This document shows positions 16,840-26,928 of a DNA stretch of 64,000 nucleotides, piece by piece. Every line of letters starts with the position of its first letter. Position 1 is the first letter of the stretch. A program made the position numbers and the translations under genes. Origin of the DNA: Nitrospiraceae bacterium (GTDB taxonomy: Bacteria; Nitrospirota; Nitrospiria; Nitrospirales; Nitrospiraceae); contig CAKKRE010000036.1 of NCBI GenBank assembly GCA_919902505.1, forward strand, positions 1-64,000. Direction: 5' to 3'. The notes under the pieces were generated by a model that worked only from the letters and a program-made list of their open reading frames with translations, did no database searches and had not been told where the DNA came from.

Positions 16840-18093
16840 TTATGCATACAGCCGAGTGACGATCTGATTGAAGTTGAAGAGCATCGCGTTCGTGCGCGTG
16901 TAGGCGGCGTGGCCGTAGTAGTGGTCGCGGACATTGGTTGAGCTGGTGCAGTCTTTGTAATCAACCAGCAGGCACTGGCCTTCGTTCGGGAAACGTCCGG
17001 CGCGGCGCGCGCATTCCACCCAGCGTTCGAACCCATCGTAGGGCTCCAGTAATTCCCAGACGGCTTTATTGGCGGTTTTGGCGTTCTCAGCGGGCAAGGC
17101 ATCGCTTCCGGCCACGGCCAGTTCCTGCACGTAGTCGCCGCCCCAGGCGATCGGCATCTCGACGGTGATCTGCGGCAAGTCCATTTTGGAGAGCCAGGTT
17201 TTTCCATCGGTGCGCAGATTGCGATGGTTCACGACGTGGAGCAGCTTGCCGATGCCGGACGGATCCCAACCGTACCGCACCGGTGTGCCGAAGGTGACGA
17301 TATCGAGCGCTACGCCATTGAGTAAGGTGCCATTGGTCAATAGTGGATCGATGCGCTGAATGGCCTGCGCATCCGGTCCTTGTGGATTCGCGGCGAGGAG
17401 AAGATCGAAGAGGGTCTTCCGTCCCGTGATCGGCGAAGGGCAGAGGAGATTGGAGGCCAGCGCAAGGACGAGACCGGCCTGGCCATGGGCTTGAATCAGG
17501 ATACGATTGCCGGCGCCCAGGTGCTGTTCGACGACGAGGACGCGTAGGCGGTCCAACAACCGGCAAGCGGCCAGGGCGCGGCCGAGATGATGGTGTTCGC
17601 TGGACCAGAGCTCCCGGGTGCAGGTGATGGGTGTGGTCAGTTTCTGATTCAAGGCTTTCCGGCATTGTTCGACCGTGGTGGTCGTAAAGTTTCCCGCGTC
17701 GCCGATCTGACTGTCGAGCAGGGCCTTCGTGGCGTCATCGTTGGCCAGTGGCGGTTTCATGCCACCCGGCAGCGGAGTGATGCCGTTCGTGCCTTCCCGC
17801 ATGAACGAAAGAAGCGAATCCAAACCTGAGATGCCGCGTGAATAGCCCCGCTTGAGCCCGCCCACTTCATCGAGCCGTCCTAGGCCGAAGACATCGGTGC
17901 CGGGGATGGCGCCATGCAGAAACATGATCAGCCGTACACCGGCTTGTGACAGCTTCTGGCCGAGCTGGCTCATCGCGTCTTGCCAGGCAGGAGAGTCGGC
18001 GTCGGGCGGCGTGGTCCAGTCCGCGTAGGTCAGCCGGTCGCCGGGATTTTTGCGGGAGAGCTCGTCGTGCTGAAAATTGTTTTCGATAGGCAT
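16840..18093 (-). CDS. Alpha/beta-hydrolase-like protein lacking the serine nucleophile
   Basis: A 417-residue protein without signal peptide. RLIMFLHGAIPGTDVFG looks like the oxyanion strand of lipase-type alpha/beta hydrolases, and DIVTFGTPVRYGWD fits a strand after the core. HYYGHAAYTR near the C terminus could carry the His. At the nucleophile elbow, expected as G-H-S-x-G, the sequence is AHGQAGLVLALA near residues 203-214, so Gly replaces Ser. It may be a binding or scaffold protein, or may use another residue. It is in the same direction as the exported pair upstream (18166-19892), 72 bases away. Confidence 0.6.
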   Translation of the reverse strand: MPIENNFQHDELSRKNPGDRLTYADWTTPPDADSPAWQDAMSQLGQKLSQAGVRLIMFLHGAIPGTDVFGLGRLDEVGGLKRGYSRGISGLDSLLSFMREGTNGITPLPGGMKPPLANDDATKALLDSQIGDAGNFTTTTVEQCRKALNQKLTTPITCTRELWSSEHHHLGRALAACRLLDRLRVLVVEQHLGAGNRILIQAHGQAGLVLALASNLLCPSPITGRKTLFDLLLAANPQGPDAQAIQRIDPLLTNGTLLNGVALDIVTFGTPVRYGWDPSGIGKLLHVVNHRNLRTDGKTWLSKMDLPQITVEMPIAWGGDYVQELAVAGSDALPAENAKTANKAVWELLEPYDGFERWVECARRAGRFPNEGQCLLVDYKDCTSSTNVRDHYYGHAAYTRTNAMLFNFNQIVTRLYA

Positions 18094-18165: not shown

Positions 18166-18723
18166 TCAGCGATGTGCTGCCGATTCGTGGCCGTTCGATT
18201 CCGTGGATGCGGGTGCAGGTGCTCGGGGCTTGGGCATGACCGCCGTCGCTGAGCAGGTCTTGGCTGCTTCATCGGTGCGGCGTTCGACGATCCGGACGCC
18301 CTGCAAATATTCCTGAACGATTTCCTCCCGCACGACTTCGATGTCCTGCTCGGCCTCCCGACCGGTGCGTTCCCGCAGGCGATCGGTGGCATGTTCCTTC
18401 ACCAGCACGCGGATTTGTTTGGCAATGTCGGCCCTGGCTGCCAGTTCGGAGACCCGCTGACAGACGAGTTTCCCTTTGCTCAGGTCGCCCTGTCCCTGGC
18501 CGGTCAGCAACTCCTCTGAGCTGGATGTCGCCTGTGTGGGCGTGGCATGGCCGGCGCTGGTTTGCGACTCCGCGCGCTCTCGTGTTTGGAGGTGATTGAA
18601 GGTTTGGTCGGCATGGTCGCGCACAGCCGGTGCCGTCAGGTCTGCAGCTAGTGCCGGCGATGCGATCAGCAGTGCGCAGAGAGGCCACCATCCTTTTCTA
18701 ATGGGTCCAGCCGTCAGCGACAT
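18166..18723 (-). CDS. Exported protein of unknown function
   Basis: A 185-residue protein with a signal peptide (Arg/Lys, then a hydrophobic run ending ASPALAA near residue 27). The mature chain is highly charged and helical, with two Cys (LVCQRV and AKTCSA) that could form a disulfide and a Pro/Ala-rich tail. The region IEVVREEIVQEYLQGVRIVE resembles helical parts of LPP20-type proteins, but I cannot assign a family. Its ATG shares one base with the stop of the gene upstream, so the two are translationally coupled. Confidence 0.65.
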   Translation of the reverse strand: MSLTAGPIRKGWWPLCALLIASPALAADLTAPAVRDHADQTFNHLQTRERAESQTSAGHATPTQATSSSEELLTGQGQGDLSKGKLVCQRVSELAARADIAKQIRVLVKEHATDRLRERTGREAEQDIEVVREEIVQEYLQGVRIVERRTDEAAKTCSATAVMPKPRAPAPASTESNGHESAAHR

Positions 18724-20077: not shown

Positions 20078-21127
20078 ATGAGTCGTATCCGCAGCAGTAT
20101 GACAGTCACGGCGGCCCTCTGCATGGTTGTCGGTCTGGGGCTGGCACTCGTGGCGCCCTCGTCCCAATCCGTTGCCTTTGCGGCACGCGGTGGGGGCGAA
20201 GTGGCCACTCCCGCTCAGGCAGGCGTCACGGAACATGTGATTCTCTTCGTGTTGGAAGGGCTTGGCCAGGAATCGCTCAAGAGTGGTGCGATGCCGGTGT
20301 TGTCGTCCCTTGTGAAGGACGGGGCCGTGACCTGGTCCGCCACCGCAGTCGCCCCTGCGCGCCGGTTGCCGACGATGGCATCGCTCGTGACGGGCATGCC
20401 GGTCGCCAAACATGGGATCACGTGGAACGTCTTTGAATTCAGTCGGGGCTATCCCCGCGCGCCGACGGTGTTTGATTATCTAGACCTGAGCGGCGGACGG
20501 GACAGTGCCATTTTCTATATGGACGAGTCGTTGTATCAACTCGCGAAGCCGGAGCCTTATACGGATTATCAAATGTGTGGGCCGCTCCGGGCCGAATGTA
20601 ACCCTGATCGTCTCGTCGGCTACGTGCGTGATTATTTCAAGAAGGCGACGAGTGGTTCCGGGTACGGTCATGCCATTCCAGCCTTGCCGCATCTTCTGGT
20701 GGTCCATCTGCCGGCTCCCGGGCGTGTCGGAGAGACGCAGGGATGGAAATCGGTTGCCTACAAAGATGCGCTGAAGACTGTTGATAAAGCGATGGGGACG
20801 GTGCTCGATTTATACCGGGAACATGGTTTGATCAAGCGGACCACGGTGTTCGCCACCTCACTGAGCGCATTCGGAGAGACGCAATTCTCGGCCGGTGAAG
20901 TCTCGGGTGAGCAGGCGAGCAATGTTCCGGTGGTGCCATGGATTGCCTCCGGCGTCGGTATCAAGGCCGGGCATACGATTCGCCAGCCGATGTCGATAAT
21001 CGATACGGGCGCGACAGTGATGCGCGCGCTCGGCCTCACGACCTATACCGAATGGGAGAGCCACCCGGTCGAAGAAATCTTCAAGACCGCGTTCGCCGCG
21101 GCTCCCGTCAGCCCACTCCTGCAATAG
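20078..21127 (+). CDS. Exported phosphodiesterase/alkaline-phosphatase-fold protein, probably catalytically dead
   Basis: A protein of 349 residues from the ATG at 20078 (preceded by GGGGCAGG), with a signal peptide ending near SVAFAA. The body matches type I phosphodiesterase/nucleotide pyrophosphatase proteins: HVILFVLEGLGQESL, MPVLSSLVKDGAV and LPTMASLVTGMPVAKHGITWN align well. The residues that bind metals and substrate differ. The first Asp is Glu (LEGLG), the nucleophilic Thr position before PxxxSLVTG is Arg, and the usual S-D-H-G-M reads SLSAFGE. I infer a pseudoenzyme, perhaps a binding protein. It opens a co-oriented run of seven genes with five HEAT proteins. Confidence 0.75.
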   Translation: MSRIRSSMTVTAALCMVVGLGLALVAPSSQSVAFAARGGGEVATPAQAGVTEHVILFVLEGLGQESLKSGAMPVLSSLVKDGAVTWSATAVAPARRLPTMASLVTGMPVAKHGITWNVFEFSRGYPRAPTVFDYLDLSGGRDSAIFYMDESLYQLAKPEPYTDYQMCGPLRAECNPDRLVGYVRDYFKKATSGSGYGHAIPALPHLLVVHLPAPGRVGETQGWKSVAYKDALKTVDKAMGTVLDLYREHGLIKRTTVFATSLSAFGETQFSAGEVSGEQASNVPVVPWIASGVGIKAGHTIRQPMSIIDTGATVMRALGLTTYTEWESHPVEEIFKTAFAAAPVSPLLQ

Positions 21128-21134
21128 AGGACCG

Positions 21135-21626
21135 ATGCGTTCATCATCGCACAGAGGATTCGCCGGACGGCAGGTGTGCTTCTGGATCGTTGCGCTGACC
21201 TGCGTGGTGCTCGTCGGACAATCGGGACGGCTCTTGGCGGCCGGTCCTCCCCCTGCCTATGGAAAAGAGCATCCGATTACCATCGATCCGACTCCGTTGG
21301 TGCCGCAATCCTGGTGGCAGGTTCCTGGTGTGACGCCGCCGCTGTGGGTCTTGGACCCGGAGACCTCGGATGCCTACCGGACGACGGAAACGCGCGAGTT
21401 GAAGCTCAAGCCGGGACCATACAAGTTCATCAGTTTTACCTTCGACTTTCCCTTCACGGTGAGTTTGGACGGGAAACTGGAATACTCCAAGTCACTCGAT
21501 CAATGTGTGGAGGGCCGCGGGACTCAGACCCTGGTGATACGGTGCAAGCGCACCTATCCTCATGGCGGTCAACGTGATGCCTATTATGGGAATAGTGAGG
21601 TGGGTGATGGCACAGGCACTCGATGA
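21135..21626 (+). CDS. Small exported protein of unknown function
   Basis: A 163-residue protein with a signal peptide (hydrophobic residues 15-35, cleavage near LLAAG). The mature domain looks beta-rich (YKFISFTFDFPFTVSLDGKLEYS) and has two Cys (SLDQCVEGR and LVIRCKRTY) spaced for a disulfide. I do not recognise it. It starts 7 bases after the phosphodiesterase-like gene and overlaps the first HEAT gene by 20 bases, so it belongs to the same transcription unit. Confidence 0.68.
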   Translation: MRSSSHRGFAGRQVCFWIVALTCVVLVGQSGRLLAAGPPPAYGKEHPITIDPTPLVPQSWWQVPGVTPPLWVLDPETSDAYRTTETRELKLKPGPYKFISFTFDFPFTVSLDGKLEYSKSLDQCVEGRGTQTLVIRCKRTYPHGGQRDAYYGNSEVGDGTGTR

Positions 21627-22977
21627 TCTGCTGGATTCCCTCGAAGATGCGGACGACGCCACGCGTGAAGAGGCGGCGAAAGCCCTCGCCGAGTTAGCGA
21701 ACCCGGCCACGCTGGATGCGCTGATCGGCGCCTGCGGCGATGAGTTTTGGTCGGTGCGGACTCGTGCCGGCTGGGGCGTGGCCAAGATCGGCGGCCCGAA
21801 GGCGATCGAAGCGTTGATCGTGCTCTTCAACGATCCGATCATGGAAGTCCGCAACGAAGCGGTGTCGGCCGTCGTGTCGCTCGGCACGGGCCAGATAGAT
21901 CGGCTCCTTGCGGCGATGAAGGATGAGCGGTGGCGGGTTCGGGAGCATGCGGCCAAAGCCTGCGGGGATCTCCGTGACTCGCGCGCCGTCGATGCGTTGA
22001 TATTTGCCTGCCGGGATCGCGACGGTGCCGTGAAGAGTGCCGCCGCGGAAGCGCTGGGAGAAATCGGCGATCCGAAAGCCGTCCCCCCGCTGGTGAAATT
22101 ATTCCGTGATTCATCCAAGATCGTCCGTGAAACCGCCGGTATTGCCCTGGTGGCGATCGGACAGCCCTCCGTCGATTTGTTGCTCGAGACGTTGAAGGAC
22201 AAAGATTTCGTCGTGCGTTGTCATGCGGCTCGCGCATTGGGAGGCATGACGACGGACTATCAAATCGGCCGGAGTTGGGTGAGCGAGCCACGTGTCGTCG
22301 ATGCCTTGATCGAGGCGCTGAAAGATCCCGATCGGGCTGTGCGTGAAGATGCCACGATAGCATTGGGCATGATCGGCGATCCTCGTGCCATCGATGGATT
22401 GCTGGAAGCGATGAAAGACGGTGCGGTGAAGCGCCATGCCATCGCCTCGTTGGGTATGATCGGCGATCCTCGAGCCCTTCCTGCCGTCTTGGCTGCGCTC
22501 AAGGGAAAAGGTGTGCGTCAGGATGGCACTCCGACACCCGGGTGCATCGTCAGTGAAGACGCCTTTATCAAGGAGGCAGCGGCCACGGCGCTCGGTCACT
22601 TCCGCGATCCGCGCGTGATTCCCGATCTGATCATGCTGTTGAAGGACGGGGTCTTACGTGAGAAAGCGGCGGCGGCGCTGGTGCTGATCGGTGACTCGGC
22701 TATTGAGCCGCTCATCTCCTTTCTCTACGATCCCAAGGCTTCGGAAGTTGAAGCCGAGGGCGAACGCGTCCTGTCCTACGCCTCCGTGCGGCTGACGGCC
22801 AAAGATTCCCTGCGGCTACTCGTGGTTGAAACGTTGGAGCATCTTGGGTGGACGCCTCCGGATGAAGAGACGTCGGTGGACTCCAGTCAGGCCGACAATC
22901 TTCGTGTCGACCGCCCGCTGGGCGACATCGGACGGTTCGGTCCGAGCGGAGATTTTGCGAAAGGATCGGTGCGGTAA
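21607..22977 (+). CDS. HEAT repeat protein 1 (PBS-lyase type repeats)
   Basis: A 456-residue cytosolic protein from the ATG at 21607 (an AGGTGG lies just upstream); in-frame starts back to 21562 are possible. It is built of roughly 12-13 helical repeats of about 31 residues with the consensus pattern ALGxIGDPRAVxxLxxxLxD. An insertion around residues 215-225 (YQIGRSWVSEP) breaks the regular array. The array ends LEHLGWTPPDEE and is followed by a flexible tail of about 40 residues. Such arrays bind proteins or, in the lyases, bilins. No phycobilin genes are present, so a scaffold or adaptor role is more likely. It overlaps the exported gene before it. Confidence 0.85.
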   Translation: MAQALDDLLDSLEDADDATREEAAKALAELANPATLDALIGACGDEFWSVRTRAGWGVAKIGGPKAIEALIVLFNDPIMEVRNEAVSAVVSLGTGQIDRLLAAMKDERWRVREHAAKACGDLRDSRAVDALIFACRDRDGAVKSAAAEALGEIGDPKAVPPLVKLFRDSSKIVRETAGIALVAIGQPSVDLLLETLKDKDFVVRCHAARALGGMTTDYQIGRSWVSEPRVVDALIEALKDPDRAVREDATIALGMIGDPRAIDGLLEAMKDGAVKRHAIASLGMIGDPRALPAVLAALKGKGVRQDGTPTPGCIVSEDAFIKEAAATALGHFRDPRVIPDLIMLLKDGVLREKAAAALVLIGDSAIEPLISFLYDPKASEVEAEGERVLSYASVRLTAKDSLRLLVVETLEHLGWTPPDEETSVDSSQADNLRVDRPLGDIGRFGPSGDFAKGSVR

Positions 22978-23164
22978 TCACCGGCTTCCTCCCCCCGGGT
23001 CCGTTCCCGGGGATGAGCATCTCCGGCGCTCCTACCGGCTACTCTCCTCTGTTTAGACCAGATGCGCGGGGACGGTTCGATGCCAGGTCGCACGGCCGAC
23101 CCTGCGTTGACCCCTCAAAAAATCCTGTGTTAAGGTCGATGGCCTCACCAGAGGCCGAGGTACC

Positions 23165-24247
23165 ATGGCCGACACTGTCAGTGAACAGATCGCAGCGCTG
23201 TCGGACGAAGATTGGGCGATTCGAGAAGAGGCTGCGACCTTGCTGGGTGCGCTCAACGACGCCCGGGCAGTTCTGCCGCTGACGAAGTTGCTCCGTGATA
23301 CCGATCGGGCTGTCCGTGAGGCGGCGATCGGGTCGCTCTCCGCACTCGGGTCAGCATCGGTTCCCGCTCTGGCCGGTTGTTTGGCCGATCCGGCCTTGCA
23401 GGTGCAGGAAGCGGCTTCGGCCATTTTGGCTTCGATTGCCGATGCGCGGGTCTTCCGCCCGCTGGTCGAGGCCCTGGGCAGTCGCGATTGGATCGTGCGC
23501 ATGCACGCCGCGAAGGGGCTGGGACGGATCGGCGATCCGGAAGCCGTCGCTGCCTTGATGCCGCTCTTGCAGGACAAGGTCAAGGCGGTTCGCGAGGAGG
23601 CCTCCAGCGCGCTGGCCGCCATCGGCGCCGCCGCGGTGTTGGGGTTGATCCAAGCCCTGGAACACGATGACTGGTTGGTCCGCCTCCATGCCGTGGAGGC
23701 GTTGGGTAAGCTGAAGTCTCCGGATTCTGTCGATCCGTTGCTGCGCGCCCTGTTCAATGAGCGGGACTCGGCGATTCGCGAAGATGTCGTGCGGGCCTTG
23801 GGTGCGATCCGGGATGCGCGGGCGGTCGATTATCTGGTGACGGTGATGAAGGAGCCGGGGTTGCGGCTGCTCGCCGTCGAGGCGCTCGGCCATATCGGTG
23901 ACCCTCGTGCCGTGCCTCTTCTTCGGCGGGTTGTGGAGGGGGTACCACTGGGCGAGCCTCGCGATACGGCCACCCCTTGTGCCGACGGGTGGACGGACGA
24001 GATGGCGACCATGGGGATGGCGGCTCGCGCGTTGGGGATGATCGCCGACGGCGTGGCTATTCCGTCTCTGATCGTGGCCTTGCGGAATACCATTACCCGG
24101 TCTGAGGCGGCTGCGGCTTTGGCCAAGTTCGGCCCGGCGGTGATTCCGTCCCTGCTCCCGATGCTGGCAAAGGAACAAGACGAGAATATTCGGTATCACG
24201 TTCGAGAGACGTTGACGGCTGTCGGCTGGCGTCCGGGACGGGTTTGA
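23165..24247 (+). CDS. HEAT repeat protein 2
   Basis: A 360-residue protein without signal or membrane segment, formed by about 11 HEAT repeats (DEDWAIREEAATLLGALND, GRIGDPEAVAALMPLLQDK and others). An irregular loop at residues 263-275 is rich in Pro/Thr (GEPRDTATPCADG). It ends ETLTAVGWRPGRV, similar to the ends of HEAT proteins 1, 4 and 5. A 187-base gap precedes it, containing a CCCCGGG stem-loop near 22992 and a weak promoter pair (TTGACC at 23107, TTAAGG at 23130), so it may also be expressed separately. Function unknown. Confidence 0.85.
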   Translation: MADTVSEQIAALSDEDWAIREEAATLLGALNDARAVLPLTKLLRDTDRAVREAAIGSLSALGSASVPALAGCLADPALQVQEAASAILASIADARVFRPLVEALGSRDWIVRMHAAKGLGRIGDPEAVAALMPLLQDKVKAVREEASSALAAIGAAAVLGLIQALEHDDWLVRLHAVEALGKLKSPDSVDPLLRALFNERDSAIREDVVRALGAIRDARAVDYLVTVMKEPGLRLLAVEALGHIGDPRAVPLLRRVVEGVPLGEPRDTATPCADGWTDEMATMGMAARALGMIADGVAIPSLIVALRNTITRSEAAAALAKFGPAVIPSLLPMLAKEQDENIRYHVRETLTAVGWRPGRV

Positions 24248-24342
24248 CAGGGTATTAGTTCGTGATGTGGTGAGGTAGCCACGGCGGATCTTCGTCTCTG
24301 GCACGCACCGAATCAGAAAACTTCGCACTCGCCAACGAACAC

Positions 24343-25443
24343 ATGTCTAAAGAAAGTATCGATACACTCGTTTCTGAGCTGACCCACGAGGAAGAGTGGC
24401 GGCGTATGCGGGCCACAGCGGCCTGTTTGGCCGGTGGGCCTCGGGCGGTGCAGGCGTTGACGCAGGCCTTGGAATCGGGCGATGTTGCTCTCCGCGTTGA
24501 AGCGGCGGCGATGTTGTCGCGGATCAAGGATCCGGCAGCCGGGCTTTCTTTGGTCGGGTTGCTTCGGGATTCCGAGGAGGCCGTCCGGCAAGCCGCTTTT
24601 TCAGCTCTCGAACAGATGGCCGGCAATCTGGACGACGAGACTGCCGCGGGTCTGGTGCGCAATCTTCACGAGTCTCCGGATGAGGATGTGCGGAACCGGG
24701 TCCGTCAGCTCCTGGGTGTGATTCCCAACGCAATCACTCCCCTGTGCGAGATGTTGACTCATCCGGAGGTTGAAGCGCAGACGACCGCGGCGACGATCCT
24801 CGAACACTTGCTGGATCCGCGCTCGGCAGACGGTTTGATCGATGCTATGTCGTCTCCCGCGGTTCGCGACACCGCTGTGCGCACGCTGAAGAAGCTGGGG
24901 GCGATTCGGGACCGGATCGATGCGACGTTTAATGCCTTGCGTGACGTGGAGGGGGCGAGCGAGCGAGAAGAAGCCCGTATGTCCACGGTCATGGATCTGC
25001 TGGGGATCGGGCGACCCTCGGTCGAGATTTTGATCGAGTACTTGGAGGATGACGATTGGGTGGTGCGTGAAGCGGCTGCGGACTTGCTGGGGAAAATCGG
25101 GGATGTGCGTGCGGTCGAGCCGTTGATGAAGCGGCTTCAGTTGGACAAGGATACCGGAGTCAAAGAGTATGCCGTGAAGTCGCTGGGGCTCATTGGAGAC
25201 CCGCGTCCGGCACAATTGTACATTGAGGCGATTCCGATCAGGCCCTTGCGGGTGATGGCGATCGAGGCTTTGGCAAAAATCAAGGACGTCGAGGTCTTGC
25301 GCCCGTATAACGAGCTGTTCAACCGGTTGCGGACCGACCGGGACGGCATTGTGTCGTATAGCGCGGGCCTCATCGCGGACAAACTTGCAGCGCTGGAAGG
25401 CGAACAGCCGGTCGGACAGGAGGAGTCGGACGATCATGAGTGA
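24343..25443 (+). CDS. HEAT repeat protein 3
   Basis: A 366-residue protein of about 10 HEAT repeats. Here the repeats are less uniform than in its neighbours, with a region at residues 180-220 (TFNALRDVEGASEREEARMS) that probably forms longer helices. LEDDDWVVREAAADLLGKIG is the best preserved unit. The end is acidic (GQEESDDHE) and lacks the LGW-type cap of the other four. The stop overlaps the start of HEAT protein 4 by 8 bases, indicating coupled translation and perhaps fixed stoichiometry. Confidence 0.85.
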   Translation: MSKESIDTLVSELTHEEEWRRMRATAACLAGGPRAVQALTQALESGDVALRVEAAAMLSRIKDPAAGLSLVGLLRDSEEAVRQAAFSALEQMAGNLDDETAAGLVRNLHESPDEDVRNRVRQLLGVIPNAITPLCEMLTHPEVEAQTTAATILEHLLDPRSADGLIDAMSSPAVRDTAVRTLKKLGAIRDRIDATFNALRDVEGASEREEARMSTVMDLLGIGRPSVEILIEYLEDDDWVVREAAADLLGKIGDVRAVEPLMKRLQLDKDTGVKEYAVKSLGLIGDPRPAQLYIEAIPIRPLRVMAIEALAKIKDVEVLRPYNELFNRLRTDRDGIVSYSAGLIADKLAALEGEQPVGQEESDDHE

Positions 25444-26197
25444 TGCCGAGCGAATTGCACAATTAATCTCCGCGCTACGCGATGACAACGAAGCGTTGCG
25501 GGACCATGCGATGGCGAGTCTCGGGCAGATGGGCATTGAGGCCGTTCCGCAGCTGATCGGCCTGATGGCCGATGAAGACGTGGTGATTCGTGAAGCGGCC
25601 GCGACGGCCGTGGTGCGGATCGGGCCCGTGGCGTTCGACCAGATGCTGGAGGCGCTGACCGACGATGAGTGGGCGATTCGCGAGCAGGCGGCGAATGCAC
25701 TGGGGCGTTTCCGCGATCCGCGTGCGGTGGATCCCCTCATGGTGGCCTTGAAAGATAAGGACGGAGCCGTCCGGACGGCGGCCGTCTGGGCTCTGGAACG
25801 GATCGGCGACTCCCGCGCGACGCCGGGATTGATCGAGGCACTCGGCGACGGGACGGTGCGAGAGGATGTCGCGAGGGTCTTGAAAAAAATCGGTGATACC
25901 AGGGCCGTCGATGCGCTGATCGGCGGACTATTGGGCCCCAATTGGATGGTGCGGCGCCATGCCGCGGAAGCACTCGGCAAGATCGGTGATCCACGCAGCG
26001 CCGATGCATTGATCCAGTCGCTCCAGGATGAGGACTGGCTCGTGCGACGGAATGCCGCCGAATCGTTGGCGCGCTTGGGGGCGAAGCAGGCCATTGAACC
26101 GCTGCTTCCCCTCTTGGAAGACGAAAACACGATGGTGCAGGAGACCGTCGAAGGTGTCCTTGCGAGTTTGGGATGGAAACAGGCGACCTCGTCATAA
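25436..26197 (+). CDS. HEAT repeat protein 4
   Basis: A 253-residue protein from the ATG at 25436 (an upstream in-frame start at 25349 would lie inside the previous gene and adds unrelated sequence; GGAGGAG precedes 25436). It is almost pure HEAT array of about 8 repeats (DDEWAIREQAANALGRFRD, ALGKIGDPRSADALIQSLQD) with Trp at the same repeat position several times (DEWAI, PNWMV, EDWLV). It ends VLASLGWKQATSS. It is tightly coupled to HEAT protein 3 and lies 20 bases before HEAT protein 5. Confidence 0.87.
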   Translation: MSDAERIAQLISALRDDNEALRDHAMASLGQMGIEAVPQLIGLMADEDVVIREAAATAVVRIGPVAFDQMLEALTDDEWAIREQAANALGRFRDPRAVDPLMVALKDKDGAVRTAAVWALERIGDSRATPGLIEALGDGTVREDVARVLKKIGDTRAVDALIGGLLGPNWMVRRHAAEALGKIGDPRSADALIQSLQDEDWLVRRNAAESLARLGAKQAIEPLLPLLEDENTMVQETVEGVLASLGWKQATSS

Positions 26198-26217
26198 CCC
26201 GATAAAGGAACTCTACT

Positions 26218-26928
26218 ATGGCAGAAGAAGCACCGGTAAAACTGATTCAGATCGGACCAAAGGGCGGGACCAAAAAGGACGGGTTCAACCTGGTGACGGA
26301 ACGCGTGGTAGCCGTCAATCCCGAAGCCAAGCAGTTGGAGGTGGAGCTGCTTGCGTACGACGGAAAGACCGTCGTGTTGGATGTCGGCGATGAGGCCCTG
26401 GAAGATTTCCTCAAGATCAAGCCCGGCGATGGGGCGACGATCCGTGTGGTTGAAGAAGGCGGCAAGCGCATTGCGAAGAGTTTCCGGATCCGGGCGAAAG
26501 ACCCGAATGCGGCCAAAGCCGATGCCATGTTGATCGACCTCAAGGATTCCCATTGGCTCAATCGCAAATATGCGGCGGAAGTGCTGGGTGAGTTGAAAGA
26601 TCCGCGAGCCGTTCTGCCGCTCGTCGAGGCCCTGACCGACGAGGTGGGCGATGTGCGGCAGCGAGCCTATGATTCTTTGATCAAGATCGGCGGGACCGCC
26701 GTCGCGTCACTCGTACCGTTGTTGGCTTCTGAAGAAGACGACGTGCGCCAGTCGGCGACGGAAATTATCCGGAAGATCGGCAAGCCGGCCGTCGAGCCCC
26801 TCGCTATAGCCCTGGCAGATGCCGATGATCGGCTGAAAACCAGAATCATGAAGGTGCTCGATCGGATGGGCTATAAGCCGAAGGCCAAAGAGGGTGCTCA
26901 GGCCGAGCCCGCAAAGCTGCTCAGTTAG
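26218..26928 (+). CDS. HEAT repeat protein 5 with N-terminal beta domain
   Basis: A 236-residue protein with two parts. Residues 1-100 are beta-rich (VKLIQIGPKGGTKKDGF; VVAVNPEAKQLEVELLAYDG; KPGDGATIRVVEEGGKRIA), suggesting a small barrel domain I cannot name. Residues 102-220 carry three to four HEAT repeats ending VLDRMGYKPKAK, the Tyr version of the LGWxP end seen in proteins 1, 2 and 4. It is the last gene of the cluster, 20 bases after HEAT protein 4, and ends just before the stem-loop at 26939. Confidence 0.83.
   Translation: MAEEAPVKLIQIGPKGGTKKDGFNLVTERVVAVNPEAKQLEVELLAYDGKTVVLDVGDEALEDFLKIKPGDGATIRVVEEGGKRIAKSFRIRAKDPNAAKADAMLIDLKDSHWLNRKYAAEVLGELKDPRAVLPLVEALTDEVGDVRQRAYDSLIKIGGTAVASLVPLLASEEDDVRQSATEIIRKIGKPAVEPLAIALADADDRLKTRIMKVLDRMGYKPKAKEGAQAEPAKLLS

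Follow-up and report, generated by a model that had tools for sequence, protein, structure and literature searches.

A putative periplasmic pseudoenzyme of the NPP branch and its constant partner gene in the Nitrospirales

Introduction

In Enterobacteria, YejM/PbgA/LapC carries a periplasmic alkaline-phosphatase-superfamily domain and has been presented as a pseudo-hydrolase scaffold that regulates by binding, with lipid A as its described ligand (PMC13125744). Its inactivity is disputed, since a Mg-dependent phosphatase activity has been reported for YejM (PMC7576196). Among solved structures, the best relative by sequence profile of the protein described here is Xanthomonas NPP (Xac NPP; PDB 2gsn, 7mw8 and 7n1s), which has a Thr nucleophile and all the metal ligands. 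Bacterial pseudoenzymes are rarely caught alongside their ancestor.

Here we analyse gene A, located in a 64,000-nt stretch of a Nitrospiraceae contig (CAKKRE010000036.1, assembly GCA_919902505.1; hereafter, the window), together with the genes that follow it, B and C (Table 1). A literature search found no paper describing the gene A protein. An earlier note had taken it for a probable pseudo-phosphodiesterase of the envelope, selected for binding; the extent of the catalytic loss, its fixation in two families, the intact sister family, a new conserved segment and partner B are additions made here. Throughout, f1 denotes the family of the window's protein, f2 a second family and f3 a third one, sister to f1 and f2 together.

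Table 1. Features of the gene A locus, in coordinates of the window
Feature	Position	Strand	Description
Divergent neighbour of A	16840..18093	-	417 aa, no Pfam or NCBIfam match
Gene A	20078..21127	+	349-aa NPP/alkaline-phosphatase-superfamily protein, catalytically dead by sequence
N-terminal hydrophobic, signal-peptide-like segment of A	20078..20185	+	residues ~1-36, ending ...SVAFA-AR
E60, replacing the first metal Asp	20255..20257	+	alignments to f3 and homologues
R96, replacing the nucleophilic Thr of Xac NPP	20363..20365	+	alignments
Residues 119-168, cluster of new invariants common to f1 and f2, different in intact f3	20432..20581	+	
Invariant Cys pair C167/C174	20576..20599	+	likely disulfide; conserved in homologues
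G215 ... E219, replacing the D-x-x-x-H metal ligands	20720..20734	+	alignments
L262 S263, replacing Asp-His of SDHG	20861..20866	+	alignments
Gene B	21135..21626	+	163 aa, predicted secreted, beta-rich, no Pfam match
Gene C	21607..22977	+	HEAT-repeat protein, 456 aa, third gene of the conserved cluster

Results

Gene A belongs to the NPP family

The frame of gene A is intact from ATG to stop codon, and an alternative in-frame start is possible at ATG 20063. That the frame is real is indicated by its presence in 166 of 175 genomes of the family, with changes that are mostly synonymous. The window's genome holds a single copy, and the orthologue of Candidatus Nitrospira defluvii is 97% identical. 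The alkaline-phosphatase-superfamily frame proposed in the earlier note was borne out. Gene A is a homologue within the PF01663 type I phosphodiesterase/NPP family (E = 2.1e-19, 70.8 bits vs a Pfam cut-off of 23), a profile of the A family matched Xac NPP in the PDB at E = 1e-14 with the same order of motifs, and Xac NPP was also the top Foldseek match of the gene A model. This AlphaFold2 model was poor (mean pLDDT 50.8), probably because its input consisted of close relatives only, and the VIA-align superposition on 2gsn (Z 12.4, rmsd 3.8 over 211 residues) is that of a low-confidence model. The structural comparison proposed earlier supported the fold, at low confidence, and did not give residue detail; we used the model for the fold only and mapped residues by sequence alignment. 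We consider the NPP fold assignment sound. Matches in the plasmid set were rejected as ordinary alkaline-phosphatase-family proteins.

The nucleophile and every metal ligand are changed

Active NPPs have a Thr or Ser nucleophile and the ligands D, D-x-x-x-H, D-H and H. Alignment of gene A to Xac NPP and to intact orthologues showed that the nucleophile and every ligand of the bimetal site are changed. The three alterations that had been read before, first metal Asp to Glu, nucleophilic Thr to Arg and SDHG to SLSAFGE, proved exact, the last one lying within T-S-L-S-A-F-G-E at residues 260-267. The loss at several catalytic positions had even been understated: gene A has also lost the D-x-x-x-H pair, with G215 and, at a variable position, E219 where the intact f3 orthologue has D-V-A-G-H, and it lacks the loop with the final His (THG in f3). 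In alignments to solved NPP structures, neither an intact nucleophile nor six ligands were recovered. The Thr position is marked by Xac chain 7mw8, which has Ala there, the other Xac chains having Thr.

The substitutions recur among orthologues. E60 and R96 are invariant in f1 (54/54 sequences), while in f2 E60 is found in 13 of the 14 sequences and Thr is retained at position 96 in 12. Asp215 and the DH pair (262/263) have disappeared from all 68 f1 and f2 sequences. The six f3 sequences compared all retain Thr, Asp, His, Asp and His, and five of them the first metal Asp; the remaining one (L159) has Glu there, with the other motifs intact. These f3 phosphodiesterases (e.g. L065/L164 in genome G383) are the closest active-looking homologues of gene A, at 34-36% identity. 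They have W116, R123, C167 and C174 in common with it but, unlike gene A, keep their catalytic motifs and are not linked to B or C.

Canonical phosphodiesterase activity might in principle persist through E60 and the other substitutes. The change from Asp to Glu is conservative and occurs in L159 beside otherwise intact motifs, Thr is mostly kept in f2, and YejM, called inactive by some, was phosphatase-active in one paper (PMC7576196). However, with G215, E219, L262 and S263 in place and the last His absent, neither metal site is left, and Arg at position 96 cannot act as nucleophile. We regard retained canonical activity as highly improbable.

By analogy, YejM/PbgA would be the nearest functional parallel of gene A. 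Nevertheless, YejM has five TM helices, is nearer to LtaS/arylsulfatases and keeps Thr302, whereas gene A has one N-terminal hydrophobic segment, belongs to the NPP branch and retains none of the ligands unchanged. An identification of gene A as YejM/PbgA was rejected: it lacks the five-TM domain, and the YejM model does not match it.

The altered copies are near-universal and conserved

Gene A was found in 113 of the 114 high-quality genomes of the family and in 148 of 153 genomes of the order; the phylum outside the order essentially lacks it. Its dN/dS against congeners was 0.06-0.10, a value that points to strong purifying selection, and 55 columns were invariant across 22 divergent f1 and f2 sequences. 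Gene A thereby shows the sequence hallmarks of a putative pseudoenzyme, with catalytic residues absent, the gene intact and purifying selection across orthologues, and the earlier view that it stays intact and selected agrees with these data.

Decay of the gene after the need for it was lost would be compatible with the existence of intact f3 orthologues and with genome G406 (f2), in which A and most of B have been lost and C is kept. Against this, the frame is open and near-universal, dN/dS is low and the same substitutions have become fixed in two families, the intact orthologues being a sister clade. Gene A is not simply decaying, given that its altered form has become fixed, is nearly universal and evolves under purifying selection, and we give decay hardly any credence. 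The loss in G406 does imply that A is not indispensable in every lineage.

Loss of catalysis appears stepwise and old

In a maximum-likelihood tree, f1 and f2 formed one clade (support 100/99), and support for the single families was 100/99 for f2, 99/99 for f3 and 94/84 for f1. A long stem of 1.88 changes per column leads to f1 and f2. The outgroup branches were very long, which makes the placement of the root between f3 and f1+f2 less certain than the clades. On this tree catalytic loss appears stepwise and old. In its simplest and likely order, the metal site would have been lost before the split of f1 and f2, and the nucleophile would then have been replaced by Arg in f1. Given that an intact f3, a half-dead f2 (Thr mostly kept) and a fully dead f1 (Arg) all survive, each step on the way from enzyme to binder is open to a separate test.

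A newly conserved segment follows the old nucleophile loop

At 24 sites, both f1 and f2 are fixed, and f3 is fixed differently. Residues 119-168 make up one sixth of the aligned length and hold fifteen of these sites (p = 1.2e-7); this segment comes after the nucleophile loop. This clustering, as read from the alignments, is evidence of new constraint, beyond mere loss. An invariant acidic cluster (D133, D136, D142, D149, E150 and D163) is new in f1 and f2. W116, R123 and H112 are invariant in the gene A family and also present in f3; their retention, together with R96 in place of Thr, suggests that an anion site may survive. A binding role of A would fit both the purifying selection and the cluster of new invariant sites.

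The same residues could be taken to mean that A is still an enzyme, with a new, non-canonical active site, perhaps in the new acidic cluster, and a different reaction. The Asp/Glu-rich nature of the new invariants, their position after the old nucleophile loop and the strong purifying selection speak for it. Nonetheless, the nucleophile and the canonical metal ligands are absent from all f1 sequences, and invariant acids could equally serve structure or binding, which leaves a new active site improbable in our judgement.

Gene A is followed by a constant partner, gene B

The start of B lies 7 bases past the stop codon of A. B follows A in 148 of 149 loci and in all 148 loci with a dead copy, the sole exception being an intact f3 locus. 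The fold of B gave no significant Foldseek match (best E = 0.03; weak CnaB/SpyCatcher-like matches). A large ORF in a genome from another family of the class (L155 6806-8156, genome G271) also has B-like domains, repeated in tandem.

Two features support the envelope location that had been proposed for A: 72 of 74 A homologues begin with a hydrophobic segment (few, 4, have a lipobox), and C167 and C174 are invariant. A hydrophobic N-terminal segment is also present in 68 of 76 B proteins, and no export signal was found in C. On the basis of the hydrophobic N-termini of A and B, their absence in C and the invariant Cys of A, we infer that A and B are probably periplasmic and C cytoplasmic.

Catalytic loss and a constant partner gene, taken together, suggest that an old enzyme has turned into a binding or scaffold protein. 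In a strict form of the latter, A would be a purely structural or regulatory subunit that forms a two-protein envelope scaffold with B and has no small-molecule ligand. The tight linkage of A and B, second copies (see below) included, and the tandem B-like domains of L155 favour such a scaffold, but R123, H112 and W116 of the ancestral pocket are kept, so that a ligand site may survive. We therefore think a pure scaffold unlikely, though less so than a new active site, and retain ligand or surface binding by A, together with B, as our preferred reading.

A, B and C form a conserved cluster in the dead families

The likely start of C overlaps the end of B, and B begins immediately after A; from this arrangement (A end 21127, B start 21135, C start 21607, B end 21626), A, B and C probably form one transcript. 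Throughout f1 and f2 the gene order is 417-aa gene (divergent) / A - B - C, C being usually third. The 417-aa gene lies beside A in f1 and f2 and was not found in f3. Across two families beyond the genus of the window, C keeps 65-86% identity. Like CpcE/PBS-lyase-like proteins, it has HEAT repeats of the HEAT_2/HEAT_PBS type, but it scores far below the NCBIfam cut-offs for these proteins and has no phycobilin context. As C is linked yet without export signal, linked genes do not necessarily encode proteins in contact.

In f3, A, B and C are present on separate contigs, and no B was found near A in these draft genomes. From this, clustering and catalytic loss would have occurred on the same stem, as far as the draft genomes show.

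Several genomes have a second A copy. Second copies carry B and lack C, and most are then followed by a signal-bearing protein of 795-800 aa with no Pfam match and a weak LapB-like TPR match. Such second cassettes were seen at L142, L046, L048, L069, L043, L045 and L150, several of them near a gene for a CysD-like sulfate adenylyltransferase subunit or near an RND pump. In the window, C is the first of five HEAT-repeat genes in a row (21607-26928), and a gene of the LPP20-like lipoprotein family (18166-18723, minus strand), conserved in many f1 genomes, lies upstream of A. At L156 4554-6292 (genome G032), the HEAT run occurs a second time, after a B remnant beside an N stretch; this may be a duplication or an assembly artefact.

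A model for the function of gene A

We propose, with moderate confidence, that gene A encodes a putative periplasmic pseudoenzyme which now serves binding, in association with B. It would descend from an NPP-branch phosphodiesterase of the Nitrospirales that f3 still has in intact form. The bimetal site would have gone in the ancestor that f1 and f2 share, f1 afterwards swapping the Thr nucleophile for Arg. The protein would have retained its fold and some of the former pocket, with new residues fixed at 119-168 near the old nucleophile loop. A would then most likely bind rather than cleave, its target being a ligand that is phosphorylated or anionic in some other way, or else the surface of a protein, and A and the predicted secreted, beta-rich B may act as a stable pair in physical contact. 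More speculatively, and with considerable doubt, three scattered genes, for an active phosphodiesterase, a small secreted beta protein and a HEAT-repeat protein, would have been gathered into an operon on the f1+f2 stem while the phosphodiesterase lost catalysis, giving a periplasmic binding complex that possibly serves the nitrite-oxidising machinery.

Position of the locus relative to nitrite oxidation genes

Nearly all Nitrospira, a group of major nitrite oxidisers in soils, waters and treatment plants, have the gene A protein. A strict tie of A to nitrite oxidation was rejected, on account of NxrB in most f3 genomes and in the A-lacking genomes G010 and G319; the failure to find NxrB in many draft genomes may stem from binning. 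From nxrAB, the A locus is about 30 kb away in some f1 genomes and about 10 kb away in f2 genomes G361 and G284, with transhydrogenase genes in between in these two f2 genomes. This proximity is a lead that could simply reflect inherited synteny. At two f2 loci (L168 and L169), pntAB-like transhydrogenase genes lie between the A locus and nxrAB.
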